A stretch of DNA of 64,000 nt, taken from assembly GCF_020164455.1 (NCBI RefSeq), contig NZ_JAIQWW010000001.1, positions 62,001 to 126,000 on the forward strand. The letters run 5' to 3'. Shown here piece by piece: positions 13,906 through 28,327 of this stretch. Position 1 is the first letter of the stretch. The number at the start of each line of letters is the position of its first letter. Source of the stretch: Phyllobacterium chamaecytisi (lineage in GTDB: Bacteria > Pseudomonadota > Alphaproteobacteria > Rhizobiales > Rhizobiaceae). Under the pieces are notes generated by a model that was not told the DNA's origin, made no database searches, and saw only the letters and a program-made list of their open reading frames with translations. Made by a program: the position numbers and the translations under genes.

Positions 13906-15105
13906 TTATCCATAAATCCCGATCACGCTGAAGCTACGAGCTTCATCGCTCTTGAAGTAAACGAGATTGGATGCGGATGTAGGGGACTGATCCGTGCAGG
14001 TGACGGTGATAGTCCCGGTGTTGCCTGCATCGAGCAGAATTCCATTCTGCCGGAATTCGCTTCCCAACATCTTCTGCATCAGCGGCGAGACATCAATGGC
14101 AATGAGGTTGGTAACCGGATCGCCAAGCTGGATCGTATCGCCCGCAGACCATAGCTTGATGTCCTCGACGTTGCTCACTTGCAGCTGATTGGCCGCCGTA
14201 TCCCATTTGGCAAAGGCTGGTAGCGCGGGTGTTTTAGTTACATTCCAGATGCGAACCATCGATAGGCCGCGTATGGCAGCGCCGAAGAATTCGCCGGCGG
14301 TATTGTTGGTGAAAGTCACGATATCAGCGCTGATCGAAGCCAGTTTGGCGGTCTTCAGGGCTTGGGCGCGAACCCCCAGCGGCTGGAAAATCACCGTGCC
14401 GCTGTCGCTTGGCGGGAGGAAAATCAGACCGGACTGCTTCTTGCCGGTGGCCGAATGAGCAATGCCTGAGGGAAAACGGATAATCCCTGTAGCACTATCG
14501 ACGACCACGGCCTCTTGCCAATGATCGCCGTCGGAGCTGGTCTTGATACGAAAATCACGACCCGACATGGTGCCCATCTCGGCCCGGCCCTGATAATTGG
14601 ACTGGAAAAGCAGCGAGGCGGTATGGCCGTCATCCACCTTGTTTATTTTCAGCTGATGCCCCCCGCCAACATGATCGAATAACGAGGCAGGGCTTTTTAA
14701 CGCCAGCCGGTTGTTCACGTCGGCGACCGTATTGATACCGATCAACGCAGCCGGGTTGGTTCCGCCAGCTACCCTGCTCCAGGAATTGCGATCGAAAACG
14801 ACGAAGGTTTGCTCTTCTGCAACCCAGGCATGCCAGCCCTCCTGAGGCTGGAAGAACACCCAGGCGTCATCCTGCCACGCGGCGATCTGGTCCGTCTTCC
14901 CCGCCCACGGCGTGACGGCCTCGGACGCGACGATGTAACGGTCGCCTTCTGAGGGCTCCGGCGGGGCATTCTTCAATTTGCGGCTCATCACCGAGAGCTG
15001 CACCAGCGCATCGAGCGCACGGATAGCCTCGTTGTGGGTGACATGTTTCTGCGCCTGCGACGGCGCAATATAAGGTAATTTGAGGTTTGTCGTCGTCTGG
15101 TCCAT
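13906..15105 (-). CDS. DUF2793 family protein (phage/tail-associated type)
   Basis: 399 residues. The N-terminus has the DUF2793 signature TTTNLKLPYIAPSQAQKHVT followed by HNEAIRALDALVQLSV. A segment GDRYIVASEAVTPWAGKTDQIAAW and a later WHAWVAEEQTF follow. The C-terminal half is beta-rich. DUF2793 proteins occur in phage tail loci and as lone genes in many rhizobia and their exact role is not established. No other phage structural gene is nearby, so this may be a domesticated tail-fibre-like protein. The start is the first ATG with full family N-terminus. Confidence 0.8.
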   Translation of the reverse strand: MDQTTTNLKLPYIAPSQAQKHVTHNEAIRALDALVQLSVMSRKLKNAPPEPSEGDRYIVASEAVTPWAGKTDQIAAWQDDAWVFFQPQEGWHAWVAEEQTFVVFDRNSWSRVAGGTNPAALIGINTVADVNNRLALKSPASLFDHVGGGHQLKINKVDDGHTASLLFQSNYQGRAEMGTMSGRDFRIKTSSDGDHWQEAVVVDSATGIIRFPSGIAHSATGKKQSGLIFLPPSDSGTVIFQPLGVRAQALKTAKLASISADIVTFTNNTAGEFFGAAIRGLSMVRIWNVTKTPALPAFAKWDTAANQLQVSNVEDIKLWSAGDTIQLGDPVTNLIAIDVSPLMQKMLGSEFRQNGILLDAGNTGTITVTCTDQSPTSASNLVYFKSDEARSFSVIGIYG

Positions 15106-15229: not shown

Positions 15230-15250
15230 TGCAACCCTGCATTCGTTGCA
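15230..15250. promoter_or_regulatory. Inverted repeat upstream of RNA/microprotein element copy 1
   Basis: TGCAAC and GTTGCA flank CCTGCATTC. The same layout occurs upstream of copy 3 (28307-28327), at the same distance of 136 bases from the microprotein ATG. The repeated position and sequence suggest an operator or a promoter-linked site. Nothing equivalent is seen at copy 2. Confidence 0.45.
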
Positions 15251-15287
15251 CACGGTGAACAATCCAACCATGGTTTGAAGGTTTTCA

Positions 15288-15510
15288 GGTGAAAGCAGCA
15301 GCATTGAGCCAGCCGGTGCATTCGAAGGGGATAGGCCGCTTCGACCGAGGCGAGGGCCTCGCCAGGAAACCGGAGGTGAAAGCGATATGTGGTATCTACC
15401 ACTGAGCATCACCCTAGAAATGAAAAAGACCCGGACGAGCTGGCAACTCACGATCCGGGTCCATTTCATCAACTAGGAAAGGAGGGCGGGCGCAAGCCTG
15501 CCCTCTCTCC
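15288..15510 (+). ncRNA. Structured RNA/microprotein element, copy 1
   Basis: In order: a conserved GTGAAAGCAGCAGCA; the block GCCAGCCGGTG (15308-15318); hairpin H1 (TCGAAG/CTTCGA, 15322-15344) with GATAGGCC in its loop; hairpin H2 (GGCGA/TCGCC, 15349-15363) with loop GGGCC; a Shine-Dalgarno GGAGG; the short ORF 15387-15476 containing hairpin H3 (GACCCGGA/TCCGGGTC, with lower stem ATGAAA/TTTCAT); and hairpin H4 (15483-15504) closed by a GCAA tetraloop. Copies 2 and 3 have the same order with different but still pairing stems. It fills most of the gap between the DUF2793 gene and the polysaccharide dehydratase gene. I do not recognise the family. Confidence 0.6.
15387..15476 (+). CDS. 29-residue microprotein, element copy 1
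   Basis: ATG at 15387 preceded by GGAGG at 15372-15376, ten bases away, and ended by TAG. The peptide begins MWYLPLSITLEMKKTRTSW and ends IRVHFIN after QLT. Copies at 18620-18712 and 28084-28170 encode almost the same peptide; several differences between copies are synonymous. Alternating hydrophobic residues (ITLE and IRVHF) on either side of KKTRTS suggest a short beta-hairpin. No signal peptide or membrane helix is seen. The ORF also holds a covarying RNA stem, so coding and RNA constraint coincide. Confidence 0.55.
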   Translation: MWYLPLSITLEMKKTRTSWQLTIRVHFIN

Positions 15511-15636
15511 GACACCCAATATATCGAGTTTTCTGTTGATTTCCAAGCACGTCCCGGTTGATCGATAGACGAGCATTGCATTTATGATGCCCTATGCTAC
15601 TGGTCTTGCGTTTTTTGCCTTGAACCTTGAGGATTA

Positions 15637-17505
15637 ATGAAATTGGAAATCTTTCGGCAAAGCGTCTCGATGATGCCGCGTCGTTACAAGCAGATACTCC
15701 TTGTCATTTTTGACATGGTTACGCTGACTTTCGCTATTTGGCTCAGCTATTTGCTGAGATTCGGTGAATTTTTTATCCCGAACAGCGAGCAAGCTTTGTT
15801 GATGGTCGCTGCGCCGCTGATTGGTCTGCCGGTGTTCGTGCGCTTCGGGCTGTATCGGTCTGTCATCCGCTACCTTCCTGACAAGGCAATCTGGACGATG
15901 ATTCAGGCCGTGACGATCTCCGTCATTCTCTGGGTCTGCCTCGCCTTCCTGACGCTAATGACCGGCGCAGAAGGCGTGCCGCGCGCCATACCATTTCTCT
16001 ATTGGGTGCTGAGCATCGGTCTCATCTGCGGCAGCCGTTTTGCCGCAAAATGGCTGCTGTGGAGCCCCTTGCGTGAAAAGCTGCTGGCGCGGCAGTGTCT
16101 TATATTCGGGGCGGGCGATGCTGGCCGCCAATTGGCCAACGCTTTGAGGTCGCAAAACGAAGTCTTCGTCGCGGGTTTTGTCGATGACGACAAGAGCCTG
16201 CATGGCATGGATATTCTTGGTATCCGTGTTTACCCGACATCGCAGCTCGAGACTCTCATCGACAATTTCGGCATCAACGAGATGATCGTGACGACCTCGT
16301 CACTGAGCGGCATTCAGCGCCGCCGCCTGATCGGCAGGTTGAAGTCTCTCGATGTCAAGGTTCGTATCCTCCCGGCGATTTCAGATCTGACCGCAGGAAA
16401 ATACCTGATCAGCCATCTGCGCGACATCGATATCGATGACCTGTTAGGCCGCTCGCCAGTGCCGGCCGATCCTATCCTGCTCGACAAGACCGTGGAAGAC
16501 CGCGCCATTCTCGTGACTGGCGCTGGCGGATCGATCGGGTCGGAGCTTTGCCGCACTATCGTCAAGCTGGCACCGGCGAAGCTGGTCATTTTCGATGTCA
16601 ATGAGCACAGCATCTATCAGCTCCATCGCGAGCTCGCCGCGGTCAGCGATTGTCTGATCGTACCGGTGCTCGGTTCGATCGCCGATGCGCCGTTGATCAG
16701 AAGCGTACTTGCAGCGCATAAGATCGAGAATGTCTATCATTGTGCCGCCTATAAGCATGTGCCGCTGGTGGAGGAAAATGTTGTCGAGGGCGCGCGAAAC
16801 AATGTGATCGGTACGGAGGTGCTGGCCGCATTGTCGCGCGAGGCAGGGGTCAGAAATTTCGTCCTCATTTCGTCCGATAAAGCCGTGCGGCCATCGAATG
16901 TCATGGGCGCGACCAAACGATGGGCCGAGCTCATCGTACGCTATCATGGCGATGAGGCGAGCAGGCAGGGCAGCGGGCAGATATTCGCGTCGGTTCGCTT
17001 CGGCAATGTGATCGGTTCCAGCGGTTCGGTCGTGCCGCTGTTTCGCGAGCAAATTGCCCATGGCGGTCCGTTGACGGTTACCCATGACGATATGACCCGC
17101 TATTTCATGTCGGTGCGCGAAGCTGCGGAACTGATCATTCAGGCGGGAGCGCTTTCCGGGGGCGGGGATATTCTGCTCTTGGAAATGGGCGAAGCCGTGC
17201 GCATTCGCGATCTTGCAGAAAACATGATTCTTCTTGCCGGCCTTTCGATCAAGGACAGCCTCCATCCGGAGGGTGATATCGAAATCGTCACAGTCGGCAT
17301 ACGCGATGGCGAGAAACTGCATGAAGAGCTGTTCTACGATCCGACTGGTGTGTCGCCGACGAACCACTCCAAAATCCTGCGCGCCAAGCGCGGCGCCAAT
17401 TCCGTAAACCATTTGCCCGAAGCGATCGCAGAGTTGCGGCAGCTGATCGAAAGGCAGGAAGCCGATGCTGTACGCAAGCTTCTGTTCGAGTACGCAACGT
17501 CCTAG
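15637..17505 (+). CDS. Polysaccharide biosynthesis nucleotide-sugar 4,6-dehydratase (CapD/WbpM/FlaA1 family)
   Basis: 622 residues. The first 140 hold four membrane helices; a first nucleotide-binding fold has GAGDAG at 158-163; the catalytic extended-SDR domain has GAGGSIG at 293-299 and the family block SSDKAVRPSNVMGATKR, where MGATKR supplies the Met-Lys pair used by this family in place of Tyr-Lys. Members convert UDP-GlcNAc-type sugars to 4-keto-6-deoxy intermediates for surface glycans, at the inner membrane. It is convergent with a WecA/WbpL-like transferase just three bases away, so both probably serve one glycan pathway. Confidence 0.88.
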   Translation: MKLEIFRQSVSMMPRRYKQILLVIFDMVTLTFAIWLSYLLRFGEFFIPNSEQALLMVAAPLIGLPVFVRFGLYRSVIRYLPDKAIWTMIQAVTISVILWVCLAFLTLMTGAEGVPRAIPFLYWVLSIGLICGSRFAAKWLLWSPLREKLLARQCLIFGAGDAGRQLANALRSQNEVFVAGFVDDDKSLHGMDILGIRVYPTSQLETLIDNFGINEMIVTTSSLSGIQRRRLIGRLKSLDVKVRILPAISDLTAGKYLISHLRDIDIDDLLGRSPVPADPILLDKTVEDRAILVTGAGGSIGSELCRTIVKLAPAKLVIFDVNEHSIYQLHRELAAVSDCLIVPVLGSIADAPLIRSVLAAHKIENVYHCAAYKHVPLVEENVVEGARNNVIGTEVLAALSREAGVRNFVLISSDKAVRPSNVMGATKRWAELIVRYHGDEASRQGSGQIFASVRFGNVIGSSGSVVPLFREQIAHGGPLTVTHDDMTRYFMSVREAAELIIQAGALSGGGDILLLEMGEAVRIRDLAENMILLAGLSIKDSLHPEGDIEIVTVGIRDGEKLHEELFYDPTGVSPTNHSKILRAKRGANSVNHLPEAIAELRQLIERQEADAVRKLLFEYATS

Positions 17506-17508
17506 AGC

Positions 17509-18504
17509 CTAGCGCAATTTGGCTCGAAACCGGAGCAAGACGAACCCGACGCCAATCAGCGCTACGACAATGCCTGCGGCACGAAATAGACCGTGTTGTG
17601 CCGCTGCAATGGCGCAGGCTCCAAGTATGACATTGAGCACGCCAACGCTGATGACGATGCCCCAGATCGACCAGCCGGAGCGCTTCGCCACCTGATAGGC
17701 GTGCTTGGAATGCGCGGCGAAAATATTGTCGCCGACCGCAAGCCGCATAAACAGCGTCGATGTTGCATCGGCGATAAAAAACAGCGGGAGGATCAGCCCG
17801 GCCCAGATCGACAGATCATGACCAAGCCGAAAGAAGGCAAGGCCACTGAGCAAGCCGATGGGCAAGCTGCCGGAATCACCGAGAAACACGCTCGCTTTCG
17901 GCCGGTTGAAGACGGCAAAGCCTAACAGCCCTCCTGCAATCGAAGCGGCAAGGCTGCCGGTCCCGAGCGTGGCAAGTCCGAAGATCGCAAAGCCGGCAAG
18001 GAGGGCGAGAGGAATACCGAGGCCTGAGACGACCATCAGGTCGAGCCCGTCCATGAAATTGGTCAGGTTGATGAAATAGACGAGGGCGAGAACGAGAAGG
18101 CCTCGCTCCACAAGGAAAGGCATGAGTTCCGGCAGCAGACGAAAGTCTGCCCCGAGCCCATGGACTGCAACCGCCGAGGCTGCGAGTTGCGATGCCAGCC
18201 GGATTGTCTCGGGCAGATGACGGCGGTCATCTAGGAAACCCACAACCCATAGCACGGCGGCTGCAATGGTTGTTGCGCTGAGAAACTGCGGGTCAAGGCC
18301 TGACGACGGGCCGAATATCCACAGCGAAACGATGATGACTGGAACGATGGCGAGGCCGCCCAATTGCCGCGCCGCCTGCGTATGATTGGAGCGCTCGGTC
18401 ACCGCCGCGCCGAGGAAATCTGCGGGAAGCGCCCGCATTATGATCGCCAGCAAGAGGGCACTTGCGACGGCAGCGGCAAGAAAAGGAGCGATGATGGCGG
18501 CCAA
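17509..18504 (-). CDS. Undecaprenyl-phosphate sugar-1-phosphate transferase (WecA/WbpL-like, GT4)
   Basis: 331 residues with about ten hydrophobic segments. Catalytic-region motifs of the MraY/WecA superfamily are visible: the DDRRHLPE loop (FLDDRR) and NLTNFMDGLD, then FLGDSGSLPIG. The enzyme would load a HexNAc-1-phosphate onto undecaprenyl phosphate at the inner membrane, the first step of an O-antigen or exopolysaccharide unit. It converges on the CapD-like dehydratase gene. The precise donor sugar is not readable from sequence. Confidence 0.85.
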   Translation of the reverse strand: MAAIIAPFLAAAVASALLLAIIMRALPADFLGAAVTERSNHTQAARQLGGLAIVPVIIVSLWIFGPSSGLDPQFLSATTIAAAVLWVVGFLDDRRHLPETIRLASQLAASAVAVHGLGADFRLLPELMPFLVERGLLVLALVYFINLTNFMDGLDLMVVSGLGIPLALLAGFAIFGLATLGTGSLAASIAGGLLGFAVFNRPKASVFLGDSGSLPIGLLSGLAFFRLGHDLSIWAGLILPLFFIADATSTLFMRLAVGDNIFAAHSKHAYQVAKRSGWSIWGIVISVGVLNVILGACAIAAAQHGLFRAAGIVVALIGVGFVLLRFRAKLR

Positions 18505-18591
18505 TGCTGATTCCCGTAATTATACGACCTCGGAGCGGTCACTTAGCACTCTTGGAAAATTTCTGAGAAGTGTTATATTTTAGCTTGGACA

Positions 18592-18815
18592 GGAGGCAGG
18601 CCGAAGCCCACCTCCGATCCTAGAGTAATGCAAATGAGACCCGCACCTTGAGTGTCCAGCTCGTGCGGGTCTTTTGCAGTTCTAGGGTGATGCTCAGCGG
18701 TAGATACCACATTCGCTTCACTCCAAGTTTTGACAGCATATTGGCCGTATGCCTCAGCCAGGGAGGCCCATCCCCCTGATCGCACCGGCTGGCACGGTGC
18801 TGCTGCTTCGCCGTC
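18592..18815 (-). ncRNA. Structured RNA/microprotein element, copy 2
   Basis: On the minus strand, in order: GGCGAAGCAGCAGCA, the block GCCAGCCGGTG (18783-18793), H1 (CAGGG/CCCTG, 18759-18778) with loop GGATGGGCCT, H2 (GCATA/TATGC, 18736-18752) with GGCC in the loop, the ORF 18712-18620 containing H3 (GACCCGCAC/GTGCGGGTC with lower stem TGCAAA/TTTGCA), and H4 (18592-18615) closed by a TTCG tetraloop. Relative to copies 1 and 3 the H3 stem has a compensatory G-C to C-G swap, and H1, H2 and H4 stems differ but still pair. Confidence 0.6.
18620..18712 (-). CDS. 30-residue microprotein, element copy 2
   Basis: ATG at 18712, GGAG upstream with spacing of about nine bases, stop TAG. The peptide begins MWYLPLSITLELQKTRTSW and ends VRVSFALL after TLK. 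It aligns without gaps to the other two copies through VRV/IRV, then the C-terminus varies. Longer in-frame extension upstream exists but covers the conserved hairpins H1 and H2 and is unlikely to be translated. Confidence 0.55.
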   Translation of the reverse strand: MWYLPLSITLELQKTRTSWTLKVRVSFALL

Positions 18816-19025
18816 AAAACGCAATACTGCTCCAGCCTAGCGATATGCATTTCTGAACAGAACCCCGACTTAAGTTCAATGCCCCGCTCCTTGGGTATTG
18901 GTCATGAAAACGCGGAAACAATTGTGAAGAGCACAAACTCTCCAATCATTCACATTGCACAAGCTGGAACCAGAGGTTATAAGGCCGCGCTGTCACGCCG
19001 AATATTCTGATTGGCGCTGGCATTT
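18816..19025. other. Intergenic stretch between element copy 2 and tRNA-Gln
   Basis: About 210 bases with no supportable ORF. It should hold the promoters of tRNA-Gln (plus strand) and of element copy 2 (minus strand). A small quasi-palindrome TTCTGAACAGAA lies at about 18851-18862. Nothing else is seen. Confidence 0.4.
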
Positions 19026-19100
19026 TGGGGCGTAGCCAAGTGGTAAGGCAGCGGTTTTTGGTACCGCCATTCGGAGGTTCGAACCCTCCCGCCCCAGCCA
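19026..19100 (+). tRNA. tRNA-Gln (anticodon TTG)
   Basis: Cloverleaf: acceptor TGGGGCG pairs with CGCCCCA, the anticodon arm GCGGT/ACCGC holds loop TTTTGGT with anticodon TTG, the T arm has GGTTCGAACC, and CCA is encoded at 19098-19100. Confidence 0.96.
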
Positions 19101-19182
19101 GTCATTTCATGACAAGACCTGTTCCTTTCCGGCCAATCATTGCTATAGATCATTGGCAAAAGACTATTGAGAGGAAACAGAT

Positions 19183-20112
19183 ATGGCACGTCGCATCGCG
19201 GTCGTTGGTAGCAACATGACCGATCTCGTCACATCGATCATCCGCATGCCTGCGCCGGGAGAAACTTTGGAAGCGCCGGCATTTTCGATGGGATTTGGCG
19301 GTAAGGGCGCCAATCAGGCGGTCGCTGCGGCAAGACTTGGTGCCGACGTGATGATGGTCACCAAGGTTGGCGACGACGTTTTCGGTCAAAGCACCATCGA
19401 CAACCTCAAGAGCAACGGCATCGACGTCTCGCATGTCGGAACCGTCACGGGCAAATCGAGCGGCGTTGCGCCGATCTTTGTCGATGAAAGCGGCGAGAAC
19501 TCGATCTTTATCATCAAGGGCGCGAACAATGATCTGAAGCCCGCCGATATCGATGCTGCTGCAGAAGATTTGAAGCGCTGTGACCTCATCCTGATGCAAT
19601 TGGAAGTGCCGCTCGAGACAGTCTACTACACGATTACCTTCGCTGATCGGCATGGCATCGAAACGATCCTCAATCCGGCACCCGCTGCGCCTGATCTCGA
19701 TCCGAAACAGGTCACCAAGGCAACCTTCGTCGTTCCCAACGAAACCGAACTGGCCCTGCTGACGGGTATGCTGACCGGGACAGATGCCGAGATTGAAACG
19801 GCGGCGCGTTCCCTGATCGACAAGGGCATCCGCACGGTCATCGTTACGCTCGGCTCGCGCGGCGCGCGCCTGATCACAGCAAGTTCTTCGACATTGATCG
19901 AGCCGCTCAAAGTCAAGCCGAAAGACACGACAGGCGCCGGCGATGCTTTCATTGGCAGCTTCGCTCGCTATTACGTGGAGGGCCGGGAGCTCGAGGCCTC
20001 GCTCAGGAAAGCGGCGCTCTATGCCGCTGACTCGATTACCCGTGAAGGCACACAGAAGTCCTATGCAACAGCCGCAGAATTCGATCAATTCCTGCAAAAT
20101 CACACGAAATAA
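19183..20112 (+). CDS. rbsK: Ribokinase (PfkB family)
   Basis: 309 residues from the ATG at 19183, with GAGAGGAAA upstream. The ribokinase N-terminal block FGGKGANQAVAAARLGADV and the PfkB C-terminal signature DTTGAGDAFIGSFARY with the catalytic Asp in GAGD are present. It phosphorylates ribose or a related pentose at O5 in the cytosol. The next gene, 21 bases on, is a RbsD/FucU mutarotase, consistent with a small sugar-salvage operon. No ribose ABC transporter is adjacent; the sugar importer at 43339-47891 is distant and on the other strand. Confidence 0.9.
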   Translation: MARRIAVVGSNMTDLVTSIIRMPAPGETLEAPAFSMGFGGKGANQAVAAARLGADVMMVTKVGDDVFGQSTIDNLKSNGIDVSHVGTVTGKSSGVAPIFVDESGENSIFIIKGANNDLKPADIDAAAEDLKRCDLILMQLEVPLETVYYTITFADRHGIETILNPAPAAPDLDPKQVTKATFVVPNETELALLTGMLTGTDAEIETAARSLIDKGIRTVIVTLGSRGARLITASSSTLIEPLKVKPKDTTGAGDAFIGSFARYYVEGRELEASLRKAALYAADSITREGTQKSYATAAEFDQFLQNHTK

Positions 20113-20133
20113 TCAGACGTACCGGGAGGAAAC

Positions 20134-20592
20134 ATGCTCAAGAATCTGGATCCATTGCTGAATGCGGATGTGCTCTACGCTCTGAGAGCTATGGGCCATG
20201 GCGATCGGCTGGTCATATGCGATACGAATTTTCCGGGGGATTCCATTGCGCGCCAGACACGGCTCGGCCGGCTGTTGCGCATTGACGCTGTGACCGCGCC
20301 GAGAGCCGCGCGTGCCATTCTCTCGGTCATGCCGCTCGACACGTTCATCGATGACGCCGCCGCGCGCATGGAAATCGTTGGCAGTCCCGACGAGATCCCT
20401 GATGTGCAGGTAGAAATGCAGGCGGAGATCGACGCCGCCGAAGGCAAGCATTGGCCAATGGTCTCGATCGACCGGATGGATTTCTATGAACATGCGAAGA
20501 ATGCCTATTGCGTCATCGCCACCGGTGAGCGGCGGTTTTATGGGTGTTTTATCCTGACGAAGGGCGTGATCCCACCGGAAGACCTTCGATAA
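20134..20592 (+). CDS. RbsD/FucU family sugar mutarotase
   Basis: 152 residues, ATG with GGGAGGA about eight bases upstream. The family blocks NADVLYALRAMGHGDRLVI and DTNFP (near the N-terminus) and the C-terminal YGCFILTKGVI match FucU/RbsD proteins; length is closer to FucU. These enzymes interconvert anomers of fucose or ribose and form decamers or octamers in the cytosol. Pairing with a ribokinase favours a pentose, while sequence length favours the FucU branch, so the substrate is left open. Confidence 0.85.
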   Translation: MLKNLDPLLNADVLYALRAMGHGDRLVICDTNFPGDSIARQTRLGRLLRIDAVTAPRAARAILSVMPLDTFIDDAAARMEIVGSPDEIPDVQVEMQAEIDAAEGKHWPMVSIDRMDFYEHAKNAYCVIATGERRFYGCFILTKGVIPPEDLR

Positions 20593-20809
20593 TCCACCTG
20601 ACGGCCATCTGATGCGATTTTCTGTGCTTCCGGTGCTCATGGACGAGAATGTCCACTGCGCCCCGGTTCTCGAAAACCACACCAGCTGTCTCATCAAGCT
20701 GAATTCTCAATAGGTCTTCCAAAGTCGCCCAAAATCCGGGATCAATTTTCCACGGATTGTATGTTTTAAAAAAGCTGGACTCCGGCGTTGCACTGCTATG
20801 GAATCGCAT
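20549..20809 (-). CDS. Possible 86-residue hypothetical protein, convergent with the mutarotase gene
   Basis: An ORF from an ATG at 20809 runs convergently and overlaps the end of the mutarotase gene by 44 bases. The peptide has protein-like composition (FWATLEDLLRIQLDETAGVV) but no recognised domain. No clear ribosome binding site is seen upstream. It may be a real small gene or chance; its location in the ~400-base gap before cysD is the main support. Confidence 0.25.
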   Translation of the reverse strand: MRFHSSATPESSFFKTYNPWKIDPGFWATLEDLLRIQLDETAGVVFENRGAVDILVHEHRKHRKSHQMAVRWIIEGLPVGSRPSSG

Positions 20810-20993
20810 TCTGATAAAATGTCGTTCACGGCAATAAATTGGCGCGTATTTCGTATCCCTTGTGAAACCATCCTTTCCTTAAATATCGCCCTTCCACTAT
20901 GTTGCCGCGAGCAATGGCGATATTGATACGCCGCGTGATTCAGTTGATATTCGTTGCGCCTGATGCTGGCAGCGAGAGTGGATAGTAATTTTC
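20593..20993. other. 400-base gap before cysD
   Basis: Apart from the uncertain minus-strand ORF at 20549-20809, the stretch 20810-20993 is AT-richer and should carry the cysD promoter. No clear operator or riboswitch was recognised. Confidence 0.4.
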
Positions 20994-21899
20994 ATGACCA
21001 AGAACCTGACGCATCTCCAGCGTCTTGAAGCCGAAGCAATCCATATTTTTCGTGAGGTCGCGGCGACGTTCTCCAATCCCGTGATGCTTTATTCGATCGG
21101 CAAGGATTCGTCCGTCATGCTGCATCTGGCGATGAAGGCCTTCTATCCGGCCAAGCCGCCATTTCCATTCCTCCACGTCGATAGCACGTGGAAATTCAAG
21201 GAGATGATCGCATTTCGTGATTCAGAAGCTCAGCGACTTGGCTTCGATCTTCTGGTTCACAGCAATCAGGAAGGCATCGAGCAGGGCATCGGTCCCTTCA
21301 CGCATGGCTCCAACACGCATACGCACATCATGAAAACCGTCGCACTGCGGCAGGCACTCGACAAATACGGGTTCGATGCGGCCTTTGGTGGCGCACGCCG
21401 TGACGAAGAAAAGTCTCGGGCCAAGGAGCGGATTTTCTCGTTCCGCAATGCGCAGCATTCCTGGGACCCGAAGAACCAGCGGCCGGAAATGTGGAAGATC
21501 TACAATACCCGCGTCGCCAAAGGTGAATCCATCCGCGTGTTTCCAATCTCCAACTGGACCGAACTCGATATCTGGCAATATGTCATGCAGGAGGAAATTC
21601 CGATCGTTCCGCTGTACTTTGCCGCGAGGCGTCCGGTTGTCGAGCGTGACGGCATGCTGATCATGCGCGACGATGAAAGGATGCAACTGCTTCCCGGCGA
21701 AGTGCTGCAGCAGAAAATGGTGCGGTTCCGCACGCTTGGCTGCTATCCTCTGACGGGGGCTGTTGAGTCCGAGGCGGCAACGCTGCCGGAAATCGTGAGC
21801 GAAATGCTCGTCTCGCGCACCTCCGAGCGGCAGGGACGCATGATTGACAAGGACGAGGCGGGCTCCATGGAGAAGAAGAAGCGTGAGGGCTATTTCTGA
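20994..21899 (+). CDS. cysD: Sulfate adenylyltransferase subunit 2
   Basis: 301 residues. The PP-motif [19 protein letters not shown] near residues 37-55 and the C-terminal block [22 protein letters not shown] identify CysD. With CysN it makes adenosine 5'-phosphosulfate from ATP and sulfate in the cytosol. The stop overlaps the cysNC start by one base (TGATG at 21897-21901), so the subunits are coupled. Confidence 0.96.
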
Positions 21900-23848
21900 T
21901 GTCTAAGCTAGGACAGATCAAGATTTCGCCTGCAGCTTCAGCCGCCGAAGAAATCAGCGCCTATATGGTCGAGCAGGAAAAGAAATCGCTGCTGCGGTTT
22001 CTCACTTGCGGCTCCGTGGACGATGGCAAATCCACGCTCATCGGACGTCTGCTTTACGATACCAAGCTGATCTTCGAGGACCAGCTGGCAGCGCTGACCA
22101 AGGATAGCCGCAAGCATGGCACCAATGGCGAAGATATTGATTTCGCCCTATTGGTAGACGGGCTGGAAGCTGAACGCGAGCAAGGCATCACCATCGACGT
22201 CGCCTATCGCTTCTTCTCGACGCCGAAGCGCAAGTTCATCGTCGCCGACACACCTGGCCATGAACAATACACGCGCAACATGGCGACTGGGGCTTCGACT
22301 GCGGACCTCGCAATTGTGCTGGTCGATGCGCGGCAGGGCATCCTGCGCCAGACGCGGCGCCACAGTTTCATCGCGTCTCTGCTTGGTATTCGCAACATCA
22401 TTCTTGCCGTCAACAAGATCGATCTCGTGGATTATTCACAGGACGTCTTCGACAAGATTGTTGCGGATTATCAGGAGTTTGCCAGCAAACTCGGATTCAA
22501 GACAATACAGGCCATCCCGCTTTCGGCGCGCTTTGGCGACAATGTCATTGGGCCATCGGCCAATCTGCCCTGGTACAAGGGACCGGCGCTGTTGCAGCAT
22601 CTGGAGAACGTGCCGTTGGAAAGCGCGGATGACGCACGTCCGTTCCGCTTTCCGGTTCAGTTCGTCAACCGGCCCAACCTCGACTTCCGCGGTTTTTCCG
22701 GCACCATTGCCTCGGGCAGCGTTGCGCCGGGCGACGAAGTCGTCGTCGCCAAATCCGGCAAGTCTTCGCGGGTCAAGCGTATCGTCACTTGGGACGGCGA
22801 CCTCAAGTCTGCAGGCGAGGGCGAAGCGGTCACGATCGTTCTCGATGACGAGATCGAGGTTTCGCGCGGCAATATGCTGGTCGCACCCGAAGCTCGGCCT
22901 GACGTTGCGGACCAGTTCGCCGCCAACGTCGTGTGGTTCGCCGAGCATGCGCTGATCCCGGGGCGATCCTATATCCTGCGGACGGAAACCGATCAGGTCA
23001 CTGCGACGATTACCGATCTCAAATATCGAATCGATATCAATAGTTTCGCGCAGGAAGCAGCCAAATCGCTTGACCTGAATGAAGTTGGCGTCGTCAATAT
23101 CTCGACGCAGGAGCCAATCGCCTTCGATCCCTACAAGTCGAACCGCTCGACAGGTTCGTTCATCCTAATCGACCGCCTGACCAATGCGACGGTCGGCGCC
23201 GGCATGATCGACTTTGCGCTACGCCGTGCTTCCAATGTGCATTGGCAGGCGCTCGACGTCGACAAGGCATCACGCGCCGCTCAAAAAGACCAGAAACCCG
23301 CGGTCGTGTGGTTTACCGGCCTATCGGGTTCCGGCAAATCGACGATCGCCAATCTGGTCGAGAAGCGCCTGTCGTCACTCGGAAAGCACACCTATATTCT
23401 CGATGGCGACAATGTCCGTCATGGTCTCAATCGCGATCTTGGCTTTACCGAAGAAGACCGCGTCGAGAACATCCGCCGTGTCGGCGAGGTGGCCAAGCTG
23501 ATGGCGGACGCCGGATTGATTGTGCTCGTATCGTTCATTTCGCCGTTCGCTTCCGAGCGCCGCATGGTGCGCGAACTGCTCGGTGAAGGCGAATTTCTCG
23601 AGGTCTTTGTCGATACGCCGTTTGAGGAATGTGCGAAGCGCGATCCCAAGGGATTGTATGCCAAGGCACTGCGTGGTGAGATCAAGAACTTCACCGGCGT
23701 GGACTCGCCCTATGAAGCGCCTGAGAATCCGGAACTGCATTTGAAGACAGTTGGCCGGACGACGGAAGAGCTGGCGTCAGAGGTTGAAAAGCTTCTTGTA
23801 GAGCACGGTATTATCTTCAACTACGATCAAAGTTCGTGGTCGATCTAG
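21899..23848 (+). CDS. cysNC: Bifunctional sulfate adenylyltransferase subunit 1 / APS kinase
   Basis: 649 residues. The N-terminal GTPase domain has P-loop GSVDDGKS (38-45), [17 protein letters not shown] and NKID. Translation-factor-like beta domains follow. The C-terminal APS kinase begins about residue 465, with GLSGSGKST at 474-482 and [10 protein letters not shown]. The fusion matches rhizobial CysNC/NodQ proteins. It couples GTP hydrolysis to APS formation and then phosphorylates APS to PAPS. Lack of nod genes nearby favours the housekeeping version. cysQ follows after a 58-base gap containing a short palindrome. Confidence 0.95.
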
Positions 23849-23855
23849 CTCTGGC

Positions 23856-23882
23856 TATCTCTTCCCCACAAGGGGGGAGATA
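23856..23882. repeat. Short palindrome resembling one arm of the R1 repeat
   Basis: A hairpin of CTATCTCTTCCCC paired with GGGGGGAGATA around ACAA, between cysNC and cysQ. Sequence and loop match the outer arms of the 176-181 bp R1 repeats, so this is probably a solo arm or deletion product. Confidence 0.6.
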
Positions 23883-23906
23883 AACAGCGCAACAACTGGA
23901 AATCCC

Positions 23907-24716
23907 GTGACAATGCTCTCGCAATTCAATTATTCCGCTCTTCTCACGACCTTTGAATCCACAGCGATCGCCGCTGGACGCGAAATTCTGCGCATCTACA
24001 TAGAAGGCTGCGATGTCGCGTTGAAAGACGACAATTCGCCGGTCACGGCGGCAGACCGCGCCGCGGAAGTGATCATCCTCGAAGCGCTGCGCCAGGCAAC
24101 GCCCGACATTCCGATCGTGGCGGAGGAAGAGATTTCCGGCGGGCATGTGCCAGGTGATCTCGGCGACCGTTTTTATCTGGTCGACCCCCTCGATGGCACA
24201 CGTGAGTTCGTCAATCGCAATGGTGACTTCACTGTAAACATCGCCCTGATCGAAGGCGGCGTTCCGGTGCTGGGCATCGTCTATGCTCCGGTACGCGGGT
24301 GGCTGTTTACCGGCGGCCCGAACGGCGCGCAGGAAGTGACCGTCGATTCCACCGGAAGCGTGACCACGCGCAACAGCATTTCGTGCCGGACTGCGCCGAC
24401 GGAAATGATTGCCGTCGCCAGCCGCTCGCATCGTACGCCGGAAACCGATGAATACTTGAAGGATTTCGCCATCGCCGATTGCGTCTCGGTTGGCTCATCG
24501 ATCAAGTTCGGGCTGTTGGCGCGCGGCGAAGCGGACATCTATCCGCGGCTCAGCCGGACGATGGAATGGGACACGGCGGCAGGTGACGCGGTTCTGCGCG
24601 CCGCGGGCGGCATCACGCTGACCCTTGACGGCAAGCCGCTGACCTATGGCCGCCGCAACCAGACCAATGATGCGGATTTCGCCAATCCCAGCTTCGTGGC
24701 ACGCGGCAGGCTCTAG
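23907..24716 (+). CDS. cysQ: 3'(2'),5'-bisphosphate nucleotidase
   Basis: 269 residues from GTG at 23907; an ATG two codons later is equally possible. The inositol-monophosphatase-type metal sites are visible: DDNSPVTAADRAAE, VAEEE, DPLDGTREFVNRNGDF and near the end MEWDTAAGDAVLRAAGG. CysQ removes the 3'-phosphate from PAP (and PAPS), protecting the cell during sulfate assimilation, matching its position after cysDNC. Its last four bases overlap the convergent btuC gene. Confidence 0.92.
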   Translation: MTMLSQFNYSALLTTFESTAIAAGREILRIYIEGCDVALKDDNSPVTAADRAAEVIILEALRQATPDIPIVAEEEISGGHVPGDLGDRFYLVDPLDGTREFVNRNGDFTVNIALIEGGVPVLGIVYAPVRGWLFTGGPNGAQEVTVDSTGSVTTRNSISCRTAPTEMIAVASRSHRTPETDEYLKDFAIADCVSVGSSIKFGLLARGEADIYPRLSRTMEWDTAAGDAVLRAAGGITLTLDGKPLTYGRRNQTNDADFANPSFVARGRL

Positions 24717-25726
24717 CCCGACCGCTTGCGCAACAGCAGCGTCACCACGAAGAACGCCCCGACGGAGCTCGTAACGATGCCGATCGGCAGTTCCTGCGGC
24801 GCGAGCAGGAGCCGTGCGGCAAGGTCGCTAAGGAGGATCAACGTTGCGCCGAGCAGTGCGCAGGTGAGGATCAGGCCCGCATGAAGCTGACCGGCAAAAC
24901 GCCGGGCGATGTGCGGAATCATCAGGCCGACAAAACCGATGACGCCTGCGACCGAAACGAAGATCGCTGTTGAAAATGCGCAGACGATGAAGACTGTGTT
25001 GCGTGTACGGTTGACGCGGACGCCCAGGCTTTCGGCCGTATTTTCGCCGGCGAGAAACGCATCGAGGTTGCGATGGTTATAGAGCGCGTGGATGAGAATT
25101 GCGGTTAGGCCTAGCAATGCCAGCGGCAGGTTTTCCCAGCGTGCGAGGCCGAGCCCTCCAAGCGTCCAGAACAGGACGGAATGGGCGGCGCGCTGATCAC
25201 CCGAAAACACCATGTAGTTGGTGAGTGCGGCAAACAGGAACGAGACGGCAAGGCCGGCAAGGATCATGCGTTCCGGCCCCTGACCCTGGACGCGGCGCAC
25301 CAGCAACAGCACAATGATCGCAGCGAGCATGCCGCCAATGAAGGCAGCGATTGGCAGCGTCCAGATGCCGAAGCGGTCGCCGAAAATGCTGATTACCGAA
25401 ACCGCACCGGCTGCGGCACCCGATGATAGCCCGAACAGGAATGGGTCGGCGAGATCGTTACGCGTTACCGTCTGCAACATCGCGCCGACAATGCCGAGCC
25501 CAGCGCCGACGCAGATGGCCAGTATGACGCGCGGCAAGCGCAGATCGACGACAATGCGTTCGATTGGTATCGTTGTGTTCAGATCGCTGAGACCAGCCGC
25601 ATGAGAGAAGGCATTCAGCACATCACCCAAGGGTATAACAGTCGAGCCGTAGGCGATGGATAGCAGAGCGAGGGCGATGACCAGCATCACCCCTGCCACG
25701 AGCGAAATGCGTTGTCGGGCTTGCAC
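24713..25726 (-). CDS. btuC: B12-type ABC importer, membrane permease (FecCD family)
   Basis: 337 residues from a GTG that directly follows the stop of the binding-protein gene (TGAGTG). About ten hydrophobic segments are present, with the FecCD hallmarks LPRVILAICVGAGLGIVGA, ITRNDLADPFLFGLSSGAAAG-like and VGFVGLMIPHIARRFAG. It would form the channel dimer of a cobalamin or siderophore importer. The cobalamin riboswitch ahead of the operon favours cobalamin or a cobamide precursor. Confidence 0.85.
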   Translation of the reverse strand: MQARQRISLVAGVMLVIALALLSIAYGSTVIPLGDVLNAFSHAAGLSDLNTTIPIERIVVDLRLPRVILAICVGAGLGIVGAMLQTVTRNDLADPFLFGLSSGAAAGAVSVISIFGDRFGIWTLPIAAFIGGMLAAIIVLLLVRRVQGQGPERMILAGLAVSFLFAALTNYMVFSGDQRAAHSVLFWTLGGLGLARWENLPLALLGLTAILIHALYNHRNLDAFLAGENTAESLGVRVNRTRNTVFIVCAFSTAIFVSVAGVIGFVGLMIPHIARRFAGQLHAGLILTCALLGATLILLSDLAARLLLAPQELPIGIVTSSVGAFFVVTLLLRKRSG

Positions 25727-26677
25727 TCAGAAAGCTTCCGGATGCATGGCCTTGGCGATCTTTCCGATGGCTTCGATATTGGCCGGACCCGGCGTGAGCT
25801 CGGCATAGCGCAGTGCCACGAAACGCACATTCTTCACCGCATCGGTTTCTTTCATCGCGGGATGCGATTTGAGGAAGTCGAGCAGCTTCTGATAGCCTGC
25901 ACCATCCTGATAATCGAGCAGGATAAGGAATTGCGGGTTGCGCGCCGCGACGGTTTCCCATGACGTCGTGCCCCAACTCGTCTCCATGTCGGACATGATG
26001 TTGGTACCGCCGGCCTCGCTGATGAGTGCCGTCGGCATTGCGAACTTGCCTGCAGTGAAGGGCTTGTCCTCGCCGGAATCATAAAGGAAAACACGGGTTT
26101 CGCCGCTGCTGCTGATTCTCTTTTTGATCTCCGCGAGCTGTGTCTTCCAGCCGGAAACCAGTGCCTCAGCCTGGTGTTCCTTGCCGAAAATCTTGCCGAG
26201 TTTTGTTATGTCGCCATAGAGCAGATCCATCGAGGCGGCCGGGCGATTCTTGTCGAGGTGCACGCAGCTCTCGGTCAAGACGAGGGTCTTGATGCCGTAG
26301 GGCAAAAGCGTATCCGGCGTCACATCGCCGCCGGGTTTCATCCCATAGTACCAGCCGGCAAAGAAGAAATCGGGGTTGGCGGCGACGAGGTTTTCCACCG
26401 TCGGTTCCTTGGAAGCGAGCTCCGGGATTGCACCAAGCTGCTTCTTGAAGGCGTCATCCACCTTGTACCAGCCTGTGATGCCGGTCACACCGACCATTGA
26501 CGATTGCAGGCCGAGTGCGAAGGCCATCTCGCTCATATTGAGATCCTGAATCACGGCTCGTTTTGGTGCTGCATCGAAAGTCAGCGGTTTACCGCAATTG
26601 TCGACAGTGACGGGGAACGCGAACGCGGGCGTCGACAATATGGTGAGTGCGAGGACGAGAATTGTCTTTTTCATCAA
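25727..26677 (-). CDS. btuF: B12-type ABC importer, periplasmic binding protein
   Basis: 316 residues. A signal peptide (MMKKTILVLALTILSTPAFA) is followed by class III binding-protein motifs: PKRAVIQDLNMSEMAFALGL, a mid-protein EPTVENLVAANPDFFFAGW and the C-terminal helical lobe. It captures substrate in the periplasm for BtuC/BtuD-like partners. Its ATG overlaps the stop of the ATPase gene (26674-26677) and its own stop abuts btuC. Sequence alone would also allow a siderophore; the upstream riboswitch decides for cobalamin. Confidence 0.82.
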   Translation of the reverse strand: MMKKTILVLALTILSTPAFAFPVTVDNCGKPLTFDAAPKRAVIQDLNMSEMAFALGLQSSMVGVTGITGWYKVDDAFKKQLGAIPELASKEPTVENLVAANPDFFFAGWYYGMKPGGDVTPDTLLPYGIKTLVLTESCVHLDKNRPAASMDLLYGDITKLGKIFGKEHQAEALVSGWKTQLAEIKKRISSSGETRVFLYDSGEDKPFTAGKFAMPTALISEAGGTNIMSDMETSWGTTSWETVAARNPQFLILLDYQDGAGYQKLLDFLKSHPAMKETDAVKNVRFVALRYAELTPGPANIEAIGKIAKAMHPEAF

Positions 26678-27480
26678 ATGCTCCGTGCGTGGGGGTGGAC
26701 TGATGGCGATGGTTCTGGCGTCTCGAACACCATGAGGTCGCGGTTCTGCGATGGATGGCGCAGGCGAAGCACGTCGAGGTCGAACACATCGCCGACAATG
26801 CGCGGCGTCAGCGTTTCATCGGGGGTGCCGGTGGCCACTACCCGGGCGTTGTGCATGACTGCGACATGCGTTGCAAAGGGCGCGACCAAAGGCAGATCGT
26901 GCAAGACCGCGATCGTCGTCACGTCAAGTCCGGCGACCAGTGACAGCAACTCGCTGCGCGCCCTGGGGTCGAGATGGTTGGTTGGTTCATCAAGGAATAG
27001 CACAGCCGGTTGTTGGGCAATGGCCCGCGCCAACTGTACGCGCTGACGCTCGCCGCCCGACAGCGATCCGATGGCGCGTCGCGAAAACTGCGCGATCTTC
27101 GCGCGATGCAATGCTTCGGCCACGATCTCGCGTTCCCGTGCCTTGCTAAAGGCGCCGATATGCGGAATACGGCCGAGAGAGACATAATCCTCGACGGAAA
27201 GTTGCAGCGCCGGCGTGTCGTTCTGGCCGACAAAGGCAAACTGCCGGGCACGCTCAAGCGGTGTCAAATGGCTGACGCTTCTGCCACGGAGTGTGATATC
27301 GCCGAAAGCCGGCTGGAGAAGACCTGCCAGCATGCGTAACAAGGTCGACTTGCCGGCGCCGTTCGGTCCGATGATCGCCAGGCGTGCACCGCATTCGATC
27401 GTCAAGGATGCCTTGTCGACCAGGGTCTCGCCGGCGATGCGATAAGTCACGACCTCGGCGTTGAGCACGATATGACTCAT
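26674..27480 (-). CDS. btuD: B12-type ABC importer, ATPase
   Basis: 268 residues from the ATG at 27480, with GGAGGA eight bases upstream. Walker A is GPNGAGKST (38-46), the signature is LSGGERQRVQLARA, Walker B is VLFLDEPTNH. It belongs to the FepC/BtuD group. It is the first gene of the operon btuD, btuF, btuC, preceded by a ~270-base leader that begins with the riboswitch. An in-frame start at 27513 lacks a binding site and was not used. Confidence 0.87.
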   Translation of the reverse strand: MSHIVLNAEVVTYRIAGETLVDKASLTIECGARLAIIGPNGAGKSTLLRMLAGLLQPAFGDITLRGRSVSHLTPLERARQFAFVGQNDTPALQLSVEDYVSLGRIPHIGAFSKAREREIVAEALHRAKIAQFSRRAIGSLSGGERQRVQLARAIAQQPAVLFLDEPTNHLDPRARSELLSLVAGLDVTTIAVLHDLPLVAPFATHVAVMHNARVVATGTPDETLTPRIVGDVFDLDVLRLRHPSQNRDLMVFETPEPSPSVHPHARSI

Positions 27481-27544
27481 GAGTGAAGTCCTCCGGATGC
27501 TGAAACGCGGCAAAAGTCGCAGCGCGCAGCACCTCCATTACGTA

Positions 27545-27556
27545 ACGTTATAACGT
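27545..27556. promoter_or_regulatory. Perfect 12-base palindrome upstream of the btu operon start
   Basis: ACGTTATAACGT lies between the riboswitch and btuD. GTTATA..TATAAC-type palindromes resemble alphaproteobacterial Zur/Fur-class boxes, so a metal-dependent repressor is possible; this is inference from resemblance. A related GTTATA/TATAAC site lies upstream of the AbrB-Doc pair. Confidence 0.35.
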
Positions 27557-27749
27557 ATGTAAAGAGCGGCGATGTGATGAAGGCAAGAACTGGCCTGACG
27601 CGGGAGAAAATCTTTGGGGTGCTCATTCCCGTCCATCTGCTAGCGACGGGATCAGGGAACGGACAATGTAGCCATCAGGCACGGACCCGCGAAGGGGACC
27701 GTTGCAGCGGGAAACATCGCATCGCTCCCGGCACACCCCGTCCGGTTCG

Positions 27750-27945
27750 AATTTCAGTATTGATGGCAGGTCTCCTGGCTCGCGGGTCTCGGTTTGGCCC
27801 GGCCTTCCCGGTTTTCACCAGTGGCGCTATTGAGCCTCACTCACCGCTTACAGTTGCGGGGGCAGCCACGGTCTCGGTCCCTTTTGGGTACGCCTCACCG
27901 TGTTCCCTTTTCATCTCCAGCGTTGTCTTGCCGGAGAAACCATCA
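27750..27945 (-). promoter_or_regulatory. Cobalamin riboswitch
   Basis: On the minus strand the core elements appear in order: AAAAGGGAACACGGTGAGGC, CCCCCGCAACTG (27862-27851), the B12 box GCCACTGGTGAAAACCGGGA (27825-27802) followed by AGGC, and GCGAGCCAGGAGACCTGCC (about 27776-27758). These are the universally conserved positions of the class-I cobalamin riboswitch. It precedes the btuD-btuF-btuC operon in the correct orientation and should repress it when cobalamin is bound. The downstream leader 27481-27749 holds the expression platform. Confidence 0.93.
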
Positions 27946-28045
27946 CAATAACCAGTAGAGGAAAGAACGTTCGAAGGGAACCTCTTTCGCTGAAACACAT
28001 AGAGCTTGGAAAAAAGTCGAGAAATGCTATGTTTGGGAAGGGAGT

Positions 28046-28270
28046 GGAAGGCAAGCTTTCGCCTGCCTTCCGTTTTCCTGGTTTTATTGAAAGTGGACCC
28101 GGACCGTTATTGACCAACTCGTCCGGGTCTTTTTCAATTCCAGGGTGATACGCAGTGGTAGAAACCACATAGCGTCACCTCCTGTCTTGCGAGCAAGGCC
28201 CTTGCTCTAGCTCGGAGAGGCCTATCATCTCCGATACACCGGCTGGCTCGGTTGTTTTCTGCTTCACTCA
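28046..28270 (-). ncRNA. Structured RNA/microprotein element, copy 3
   Basis: On the minus strand, in order: GTGAAGCAG, the block GCCAGCCGGTG (28237-28247), H1 (TCGGAG/CTCCGA, 28212-28234) with GATAGGCC in the loop, H2 (GAGCAA/TTGCTC, 28191-28207) with loop GGGCC, Shine-Dalgarno AGGAGG, ORF 28170-28084 with H3 (GACCCGGAC/GTCCGGGTC, lower stem TTGAAA/TTTCAA), and H4 (28046-28071), an 11-pair stem closed by a GAAA tetraloop. The inverted repeat at 28307-28327 lies upstream at the same distance as in copy 1. The element sits between the cobalamin riboswitch and the DUF2126 gene, divergent from the latter. Confidence 0.6.
28084..28170 (-). CDS. 28-residue microprotein, element copy 3
   Basis: ATG at 28170 with AGGAGG seven bases upstream, the strongest binding site of the three copies; stop TAA. 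The peptide begins MWFLPLRITLELKKTRTSW and ends VRVHFQ after SIT. Conserved with copies 1 and 2 at 20 or more positions. Synonymous differences such as CTA/CTG and AGC/AGT support coding. Confidence 0.55.
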   Translation of the reverse strand: MWFLPLRITLELKKTRTSWSITVRVHFQ

Positions 28271-28306
28271 CAAAACTCGACGAAGGTGCCTGTGATCGAC
28301 CTTGGC

Positions 28307-28327
28307 GGCAACGGATGCAGGGTTGCA
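28307..28327. promoter_or_regulatory. Inverted repeat upstream of RNA/microprotein element copy 3
   Basis: Minus-strand TGCAAC and GTTGCC flank CCTGCATCC, matching the site at 15230-15250 in sequence and in distance (136 bases) to the microprotein start. The rest of the gap, 28328-28485, shows nothing recognisable apart from the start region of the DUF2126 gene. Confidence 0.45.

Follow-up and report, generated by a model that had tools for sequence, protein, structure and literature searches.

In a stretch of 64,000 nucleotides from Phyllobacterium chamaecytisi (contig NZ_JAIQWW010000001.1, positions 62,001 to 126,000 of the forward strand; this whole stretch is called the window, and coordinates are given in its numbering) a compact element is found in three copies. 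Each copy is probably a type I toxin-antitoxin (TA)-like module, in which the mRNA of a small peptide is closed by its own 3' end and is controlled by an antisense RNA. The support comes from sequence comparison, namely from the coding signal, the pairings, the promoter-like and terminator-like signals on the antisense strand and the spread of the family. In copy 1 the peptide mRNA would run from the outermost stem, P1, to an anti-Shine-Dalgarno (anti-SD) sequence (15278-15512, + strand, both ends putative); it would occupy 18584-18822 (-) in copy 2 and 28040-28277 (-) in copy 3. The initial annotation had described the copies as a structured RNA element, and all the parts it listed were recovered in the three copies at the given coordinates and strands: GCCAGCCGGTG, hairpin H1 with GAT[AG]GGCC, hairpin H2 with GGCC, an open reading frame (ORF) containing hairpin H3, and hairpin H4. 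The H4 loops GCAA, TTCG and GAAA and the exchange of a G-C pair for C-G in H3 of copy 2 were likewise confirmed. Its inventory overlooked P1, the strong signal of coding in the ORF, every long-range pairing and the whole opposite strand. The structure therefore stands but the label is incomplete, since the element is a coding mRNA convergent with a predicted antisense RNA.

The ORF comprises 28-30 codons with the consensus MW..P(L/F)S(I/V)TL..(K/R)(K/R)TRT(S/G)W...(V/I)RV.F. In the window it is found at 15387-15476 (+; 29 aa, MWYLPLSITLEMKKTRTSWQLTIRVHFIN), 18620-18712 (-; 30 aa, MWYLPLSITLELQKTRTSWTLKVRVSFALL) and 28084-28170 (-; 28 aa, MWFLPLRITLELKKTRTSWSITVRVHFQ). The ratio of nonsynonymous to synonymous substitution (dN/dS) was determined over the first ten anchored N-terminal codons, which lie outside the antisense RNA, using 113 non-redundant sequences (3725 non-independent pairs). 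It was 0.30 in frame, whereas the two alternative frames gave 0.77 and 1.81, and a pure non-coding RNA was rejected on this basis. The frames of the antisense strand gave 0.68, 0.35 and 1.31; we ascribe the value of 0.35 to a silent position that this frame has in common with the coding one. With 28-30 residues and this dN/dS the gene is a true small coding gene, below the limit of about 60 aa that applies to type I toxins. The peptide is cationic, with conserved P, R, W, R and V residues, and hydrophobic and polar residues alternate along it. AlphaFold2, applied to 41 sequences, returned a beta-hairpin with strands at residues 6-13 and 20-27 (mean pLDDT 79, pTM 0.31), and an amphipathic beta-hairpin is thus the predicted form, a prediction that calls for caution at 30 residues. 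A solved structure was not found by sequence, and convincing matches for the 41 members were absent from Pfam, NCBIfam, PHROGs and PADLOC (best peptide-family E-value 0.014, with one or two members per family; PADLOC zero).

For the pairing analyses, 219 matches were reduced to 211 distinct loci, 179 of which fit a strict peptide pattern. The remaining 32 consist of 12 that are disrupted, frameshifted or stopped early, 5 that read past the usual stop and 15 with a similar peptide, nine of these with a change of T to I. An 85% identity filter kept 129 of the 179 loci, and 127 were used for the antisense promoter and for Shine-Dalgarno (SD) accessibility. Loci L165-L244, which make up 80 of at least 117 stretches, were collected with a pattern for H3 in which TGG and the stem are fixed, and are therefore not independent evidence for H3 or for pairing of the Trp codon.

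The 5' domain, a four-way junction under tight constraint, contains a loop-loop contact and a strand, AGCAG, that hardly varies. In copy 1 it spans 15280-15371 (+), with P1 formed by 15280-15291 and 15360-15371, followed by hairpins Pa (15302-15318), H1 (15321-15344) and H2 (15349-15363). The corresponding positions on the - strand are 18727-18820 in copy 2 (P1, 18810-18820 with 18727-18737; Pa, 18782-18800; H1, 18758-18779; H2, 18736-18753) and 28184-28276 in copy 3 (P1, 28266-28276 with 28184-28194; Pa, 28237-28253; H1, 28212-28234; H2, 28192-28206). Its structure was evaluated in an alignment (A7) of 104 rows, 101 of them distinct, fitted to a covariance model (R1) built from 11 copies of the own genome. 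Over P1, Pa, H1, H2 and the contact between the H1 and H2 loops, standard pairs occupy 93.2% of the cells, against 74.5% in shuffled alignments, and this falls to 39-43% when the structure is slid by one to three columns. Cells with changes on both sides number 488, against 128 after shuffling, and for neither measure did any of 500 shuffles reach the observed value. By a cruder measure, 25 of 27 pairs show changes on both sides, compared with 22.1 after shuffling, and 10 of 500 shuffles equal it. Together with the covariation scan, the shuffles strongly support the earlier claim of a selected RNA structure with covarying stems. The proposed contact between the GGCC-bearing loops also finds support, because 69 sequences have G-C and 25 have A-U at the pair 80-147 between the H1 and H2 loops (unpaired in 5); pairing is less consistent at the outer pair of this contact, 83-136 (74% paired). 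R1 does not contain the pairs 80-147 and 129-150, which were selected from a covariation scan of A7 itself. P1 and H2 use a common 3' strand (15349-15371 in copy 1, and in the homologues) and both covary, so that they cannot both be complete at once; this suggests either an alternation of the two or a base triple.

Three further pairings would lock the mRNA. The start-codon hairpin is formed by the codon of residue 2 and the proline codon at residue 5, mostly as TGG/CCA (61) or CGG/CCG (18), more rarely as GGG/CCC (2) or AGG/CCT (2), the others being wobble or unpaired. Among 113 non-redundant loci with Pro-5 it is paired in 100, against 78.6 upon permutation (0 of 5000 permutations; 13 loci unpaired), and forms in all 11 copies of the own genome. 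The loop of Pa pairs through five bases around the Trp codon of the ORF, in 147 of 179 loci by Watson-Crick pairs and in 163 when G-U is included (16 unpaired). Without the loci chosen by pattern, 98 of 113 are Watson-Crick, 10 include G-U and 5 are unpaired. Compensated exceptions, in loci found by blastn or with the 5' model, are GCTAC/GTAGC, CGTGG/CCACG, GATGG/CCATC, CCTGG/CCAGG and GTTGG/CCAAC, and the permutation test gave 1 of 5000 overall, and 1 and 9 of 5000 in two groups.

The third pairing joins the SD sequence to an anti-SD directly 3' of H4, and both partners covary, as in CUUGGAG/CUCCAAG, CGGAG/CUCCG, ACAGGAG/CUCCUGU and CGGAGGUG/CACCUCCG. In the window the partners are CCGGAGGTG (15370-15378, +) and TCTCCG (15506-15511, +) in copy 1, TTGGAGTG (18719-18726, -) and TGTCCAAG (18584-18591, -) in copy 2, and CAGGAGGTG (28176-28184, -) and CCACTCCC (28040-28047, -) in copy 3. 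The energy with the own partner is -10.70 kcal/mol, compared with -9.18 kcal/mol for permuted partners (0 of 5000). The signal holds for loci of the genus (n=61, z -6.4) as well as for those from elsewhere (n=68, z -5.2). The own anti-SD is not invariably the best partner (median rank 0.19). The predicted probability that the SD is unpaired is 0.044 in the full-length RNA, 0.647 without the tail and 0.335 when the tail is shuffled (n=127 of 129), and accessibility fails to rise in only 4 of 127 loci on removal of the tail and in 5 of 127 on shuffling. Copy 3 folded alone (z -6.5) has both P1 and the SD/anti-SD pairing in its minimum-free-energy structure.

On the sequences compared, RNA pairing is thus written in the codons themselves, in residue 2 with the proline codon and in the paired residues of H3. 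In the latter, threonine and valine switch jointly to serine and leucine, asparagine and phenylalanine, or isoleucine and isoleucine. A sub-family of copies in the genus (L074, L079, L084, L087, L088, L094, L095, L112 and L118) has the motif K(R/K)IR..W....RI.F, in which T to I and V to I occur together, as the pairing of H3 requires.

The 3' end of the element is promoter-like when read on the opposite strand, and is followed there by H4 and then by H3 with a short T-run. From this order, an antisense RNA of about 90 nt that ends inside the ORF is predicted, with putative ends at 15421-15512 (-) in copy 1, 18585-18677 (+) in copy 2 and 28040-28136 (+) in copy 3. Since it would start at the complement of the anti-SD and end in the ORF, its 5' end imitates the SD; overlap with the mRNA by itself makes the two complementary. 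H4 (15481-15505, 18592-18615 and 28046-28071) is a hairpin on both strands, and H3 (15423-15461, 18638-18675 and 28096-28134) forms a hairpin on the coding strand and, on the other, a terminator-like end of the antisense RNA (TCCGGGTCTTTTT in copy 1). A role of H3 as a terminator of the sense strand was rejected, since it is the antisense side that carries the A/T-run. The covariation of H3 and H4, a terminator-like structure and an antisense hairpin on the other strand, cannot be assigned to the sense strand alone. The best antisense promoter score averages 8.7 of 12, compared with 7.0 for shuffled sequences, and 80 of 127 loci reach at least 9; the commonest hexamers are TTGGAA (45) or TTGAAA (16) and TATATT (56). 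The consensus scan places sites at copy 1 (TTGGAA-17-TATATT, 15518-15546, -) and copy 2 (TTGGAA-16-TATATT, with TG before the second hexamer, 18552-18579, +). The antisense stretch of copy 1 folds with z -5.3.

Combining these observations, the sense gene would yield an mRNA of about 235 nt that starts at or near P1 and encodes the cationic peptide of 28-30 aa. The full-length mRNA would be closed by the 5' domain, the start-codon hairpin, the pairing of the 5' loop with the Trp codon and, chiefly, the SD/anti-SD pairing, and loss of the 3' tail by trimming would open it. The antisense RNA, transcribed from the promoter at the 3' end up to the terminator in the ORF, would overlie the anti-SD and the ORF's 3' half, either blocking translation or triggering cleavage by RNase III. 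By filling the loop with the Trp codon, the 5' loop could hide the site of contact with the antisense RNA in the closed form. In this scheme we infer the transcripts and their ends, the 3' processing, the action of the antisense RNA and the toxicity of the peptide.

The element is widespread. Within the own genome 11 copies were found by blastn (E < 1e-17) and 12 with the covariance model, no weaker match following up to E = 1. Seven of the 12 lie on contig C1 and five on C8, where two tandem pairs occur at a spacing of about 390-400 bp; a pattern search of the own genome gave one match outside the family. The check proposed earlier, a model search that could have returned no further copies with covarying stems, was thus carried out and produced more of them. 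In the genus, all 20 genomes including the own one have matches, 1-11 each (DNA search, E <= 1e-6), with a single weak match of about 64 bases in genome G074. At higher ranks, with strict filters at which weak matches are lost, model R1 detected the element in 31 of 151 genomes (24 of 109 genera) of the family and in 15 of 297 genomes (six families) of the order. Model R2, built from 104 sequences, returned only the own genome among 289 of the class, so that this search doubles as a negative control. Among the matches listed, the H3 pattern was present in Rhizobium, Neorhizobium, Pararhizobium, Shinella, Brucella/Ochrobactrum and Microvirga, and 74 of 80 H3-pattern loci carry the 5' domain.

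Copies are also found on plasmids, in 13 records from Sinorhizobium, Agrobacterium, Rhizobium, Microvirga and Ancylobacter, with the 5' domain in the three examined. Twelve phage records contain the element, 10 of them titled Rhizobium phage, including two of one and the same phage, RHEph10, and the four examined have both the 5' domain and an intact ORF; the host Rhizobium phages measure 115-122 kb. In IMG/VR, 29 of 30 stretches carry the 5' domain (exception L332), and among 22 viral loci examined the ORF is shifted in L305 alone. A few kb from the copy in Rhizobium phage B1VFA (L343), the annotation has genes for a NadM-family adenylyltransferase, a nicotinamide phosphoribosyltransferase and a (p)ppGpp synthetase/hydrolase. 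None of the 4227 Rfam families matched the element above its gathering threshold, in the window or at nine further loci (best sub-threshold match BASRCII26 at copy 3, 18.7 bits against a gathering threshold of 218), which rules out a known Rfam family. Judged from these searches, the element looks like an undescribed TA-like family of rhizobia, plasmids and phages.

The closest known system is aapA/IsoA of Helicobacter pylori, likened here by layout and not by alignment. According to an excerpt of PMC6733600, this is a multi-copy chromosomal family with a peptide of 30 aa and an 80-nt antisense RNA on the opposite strand, in which a 3' anti-SD sequesters the SD through a long-distance 5'-3' interaction and the truncated mRNA is the translated form. 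The layout, the sizes of the peptide and of the predicted antisense RNA and the 3' anti-SD are alike. The rhizobial peptide is predicted to be a beta-hairpin, whereas AapA1 is alpha-helical by NMR (excerpt of PMC8309996). Sequestration of the SD by a 3' anti-SD in the full-length mRNA is, for the rhizobial family, what the covariation and the predicted accessibility indicate. In contrast to aapA/IsoA, the predicted rhizobial antisense RNA would overlie the 3' half and terminate within the ORF, a covarying four-way 5' domain, a start-codon hairpin and a pairing of the 5' loop with the ORF are added, and the family resides in Hyphomicrobiales, plasmids and phages.

In hok/sok and Fst/RNAII the full-length mRNA likewise folds back from 5' to 3', the target of the antisense RNA is hidden in the inert form and plasmids are carriers; their peptides differ from the rhizobial one. 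The Bacillus subtilis SP-beta system bsrG/SR4 is comparable to yonT/SR6, and both have hydrophobic toxins and an overlap in the 3' untranslated region (UTR) instead of a terminator in the ORF. SR6, from the SP-beta prophage, is described in an excerpt of PMC5848175 as a 100-nt antisense RNA overlapping the 3' end of yonT, an arrangement like the one predicted for the rhizobial element, but yonT encodes 58 aa rather than 28-30. In Sinorhizobium, part of PMC3927594 lists the antisense pair SmelC775/SmelC776 and the multi-copy RNAs SmelB053, SmelB126 and SmelA003. By the same text, the pair differs in its complete microsynteny and its relatives in Sinorhizobium species, and SmelB053 in its resemblance to cold-shock 3' UTRs; SmelB126 and SmelA003, compared by their description there, could belong to the same family. 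Among the titles listed from the open-access literature on type I TA systems with rhizobia, Brucella or Rhizobium phages and on small proteins of S. meliloti, none reported the family, though a transcript of it may have been published under another name; nor did titles and abstract openings there reveal a type I TA system in Alphaproteobacteria.

Several observations weigh against a TA-like module. The peptide, as modelled, lacks the alpha-helical transmembrane segment of the membrane type I toxins, which are alpha-helical transmembrane peptides (excerpt of PMC8309996). The consensus scan called no antisense promoter at copy 3, where the region TTGGAA ... TATGTT (28005-28035, +) stays under its threshold, and recognized H3 as a terminator at none of the copies, the loop of H3 being longer than the 3-8 nucleotides scanned. 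The T-run behind H3 is short, and in 53 of 129 loci the longest A run on the sense side is at most 3. A sense terminator was not noticed, so that the 3' end of the mRNA is a guess. As the antisense RNA would cover the anti-SD, it might free the SD while blocking the ORF, and its net effect is not obvious. Relatedness among the sequences is, moreover, only partly removed by the permutation tests.

The same locked mRNA and antisense RNA could serve a non-toxic small regulatory protein that is needed at a particular time, its beta-hairpin binding the ribosome, RNA or a membrane protein. The purifying selection on the peptide, the conservation of P, R, W, R and V in what is predicted to be a beta-hairpin and not a transmembrane helix, and well-kept copies in relatives (e.g. 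94% identity in genome G079) agree with this. We nevertheless consider it rather unlikely, since tandem, plasmid and phage copies are more typical of TA loci, as is the presence of 12 frameshifted, early-stopped or disrupted loci among the 211. Tandem copies and carriage on plasmids and phages support the TA-like module.

A 5' domain that is more elaborate than a lock needs, with its four-way junction, loop-loop contact and AGCAG strand, and a switch-like common 3' strand of P1 and H2, might instead point to a non-coding or riboswitch-like RNA that would free the SD upon binding of a protein or ligand, with the ORF as a mere sensor or leader peptide. The ORF directly after the 5' domain is that of the peptide itself. 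This reading appears improbable: the peptide is conserved, a convergent promoter-like site lies after its ORF, and an unsystematic look at about 200 nt downstream, read at some loci, gave no sign of a recurring ORF. Least probable is a selfish repetitive element, REP-like or insertion-derived, conserved through its own mobility; many copies, some in tandem, on plasmids and in phages would fit it, but purifying selection on the frame, compensatory pairing and conserved promoter- and terminator-like signals would not.

Many copies in the genus are preceded by an 18-bp imperfect palindrome, CAACCCTGCRTTCGTTGC (L347-L359), found in the window as TGCAACCCTGCATTCGTTGCA at 15230-15250, a putative operator upstream of copy 1, and at 28308-28327 upstream of copy 3. 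In the own genome, at up to two mismatches, 9 of 13 sites precede a copy, against a single site in the backward control, and 3 of the 12 copies have none. A perfect site (C10:110843) precedes an apparent decayed copy. The palindrome may be the operator of some regulator. Copy 1 adjoins a gene for a DUF2793 protein (13906-15105, -); such proteins are often phage-derived. A cobalamin riboswitch (RF00174, 131.5 bits) lies at 27748-27959 (-), about 80 bp downstream of copy 3.

We give about even chances to the broader proposal that this is a new type I TA family across Hyphomicrobiales, on chromosomes, plasmids and Rhizobium phages, with an amphipathic beta-hairpin toxin and several independent covarying locks (the start-codon hairpin, the pairing of the 5' loop with the Trp codon, SD/anti-SD and the H1-H2 kissing contact), some of them written in codons. 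If that is true, the overlap of P1 and H2 would make the 5' domain a switch that senses the completeness of its own 3' end. Type I TA systems seem little known in Alphaproteobacteria, and this unannotated family would offer a natural system for the study of structure-locked toxin messages, a possible beta-hairpin toxin and the exchange of modules between phage and host, in a gene of 29 residues that shows codon choice by RNA pairing.

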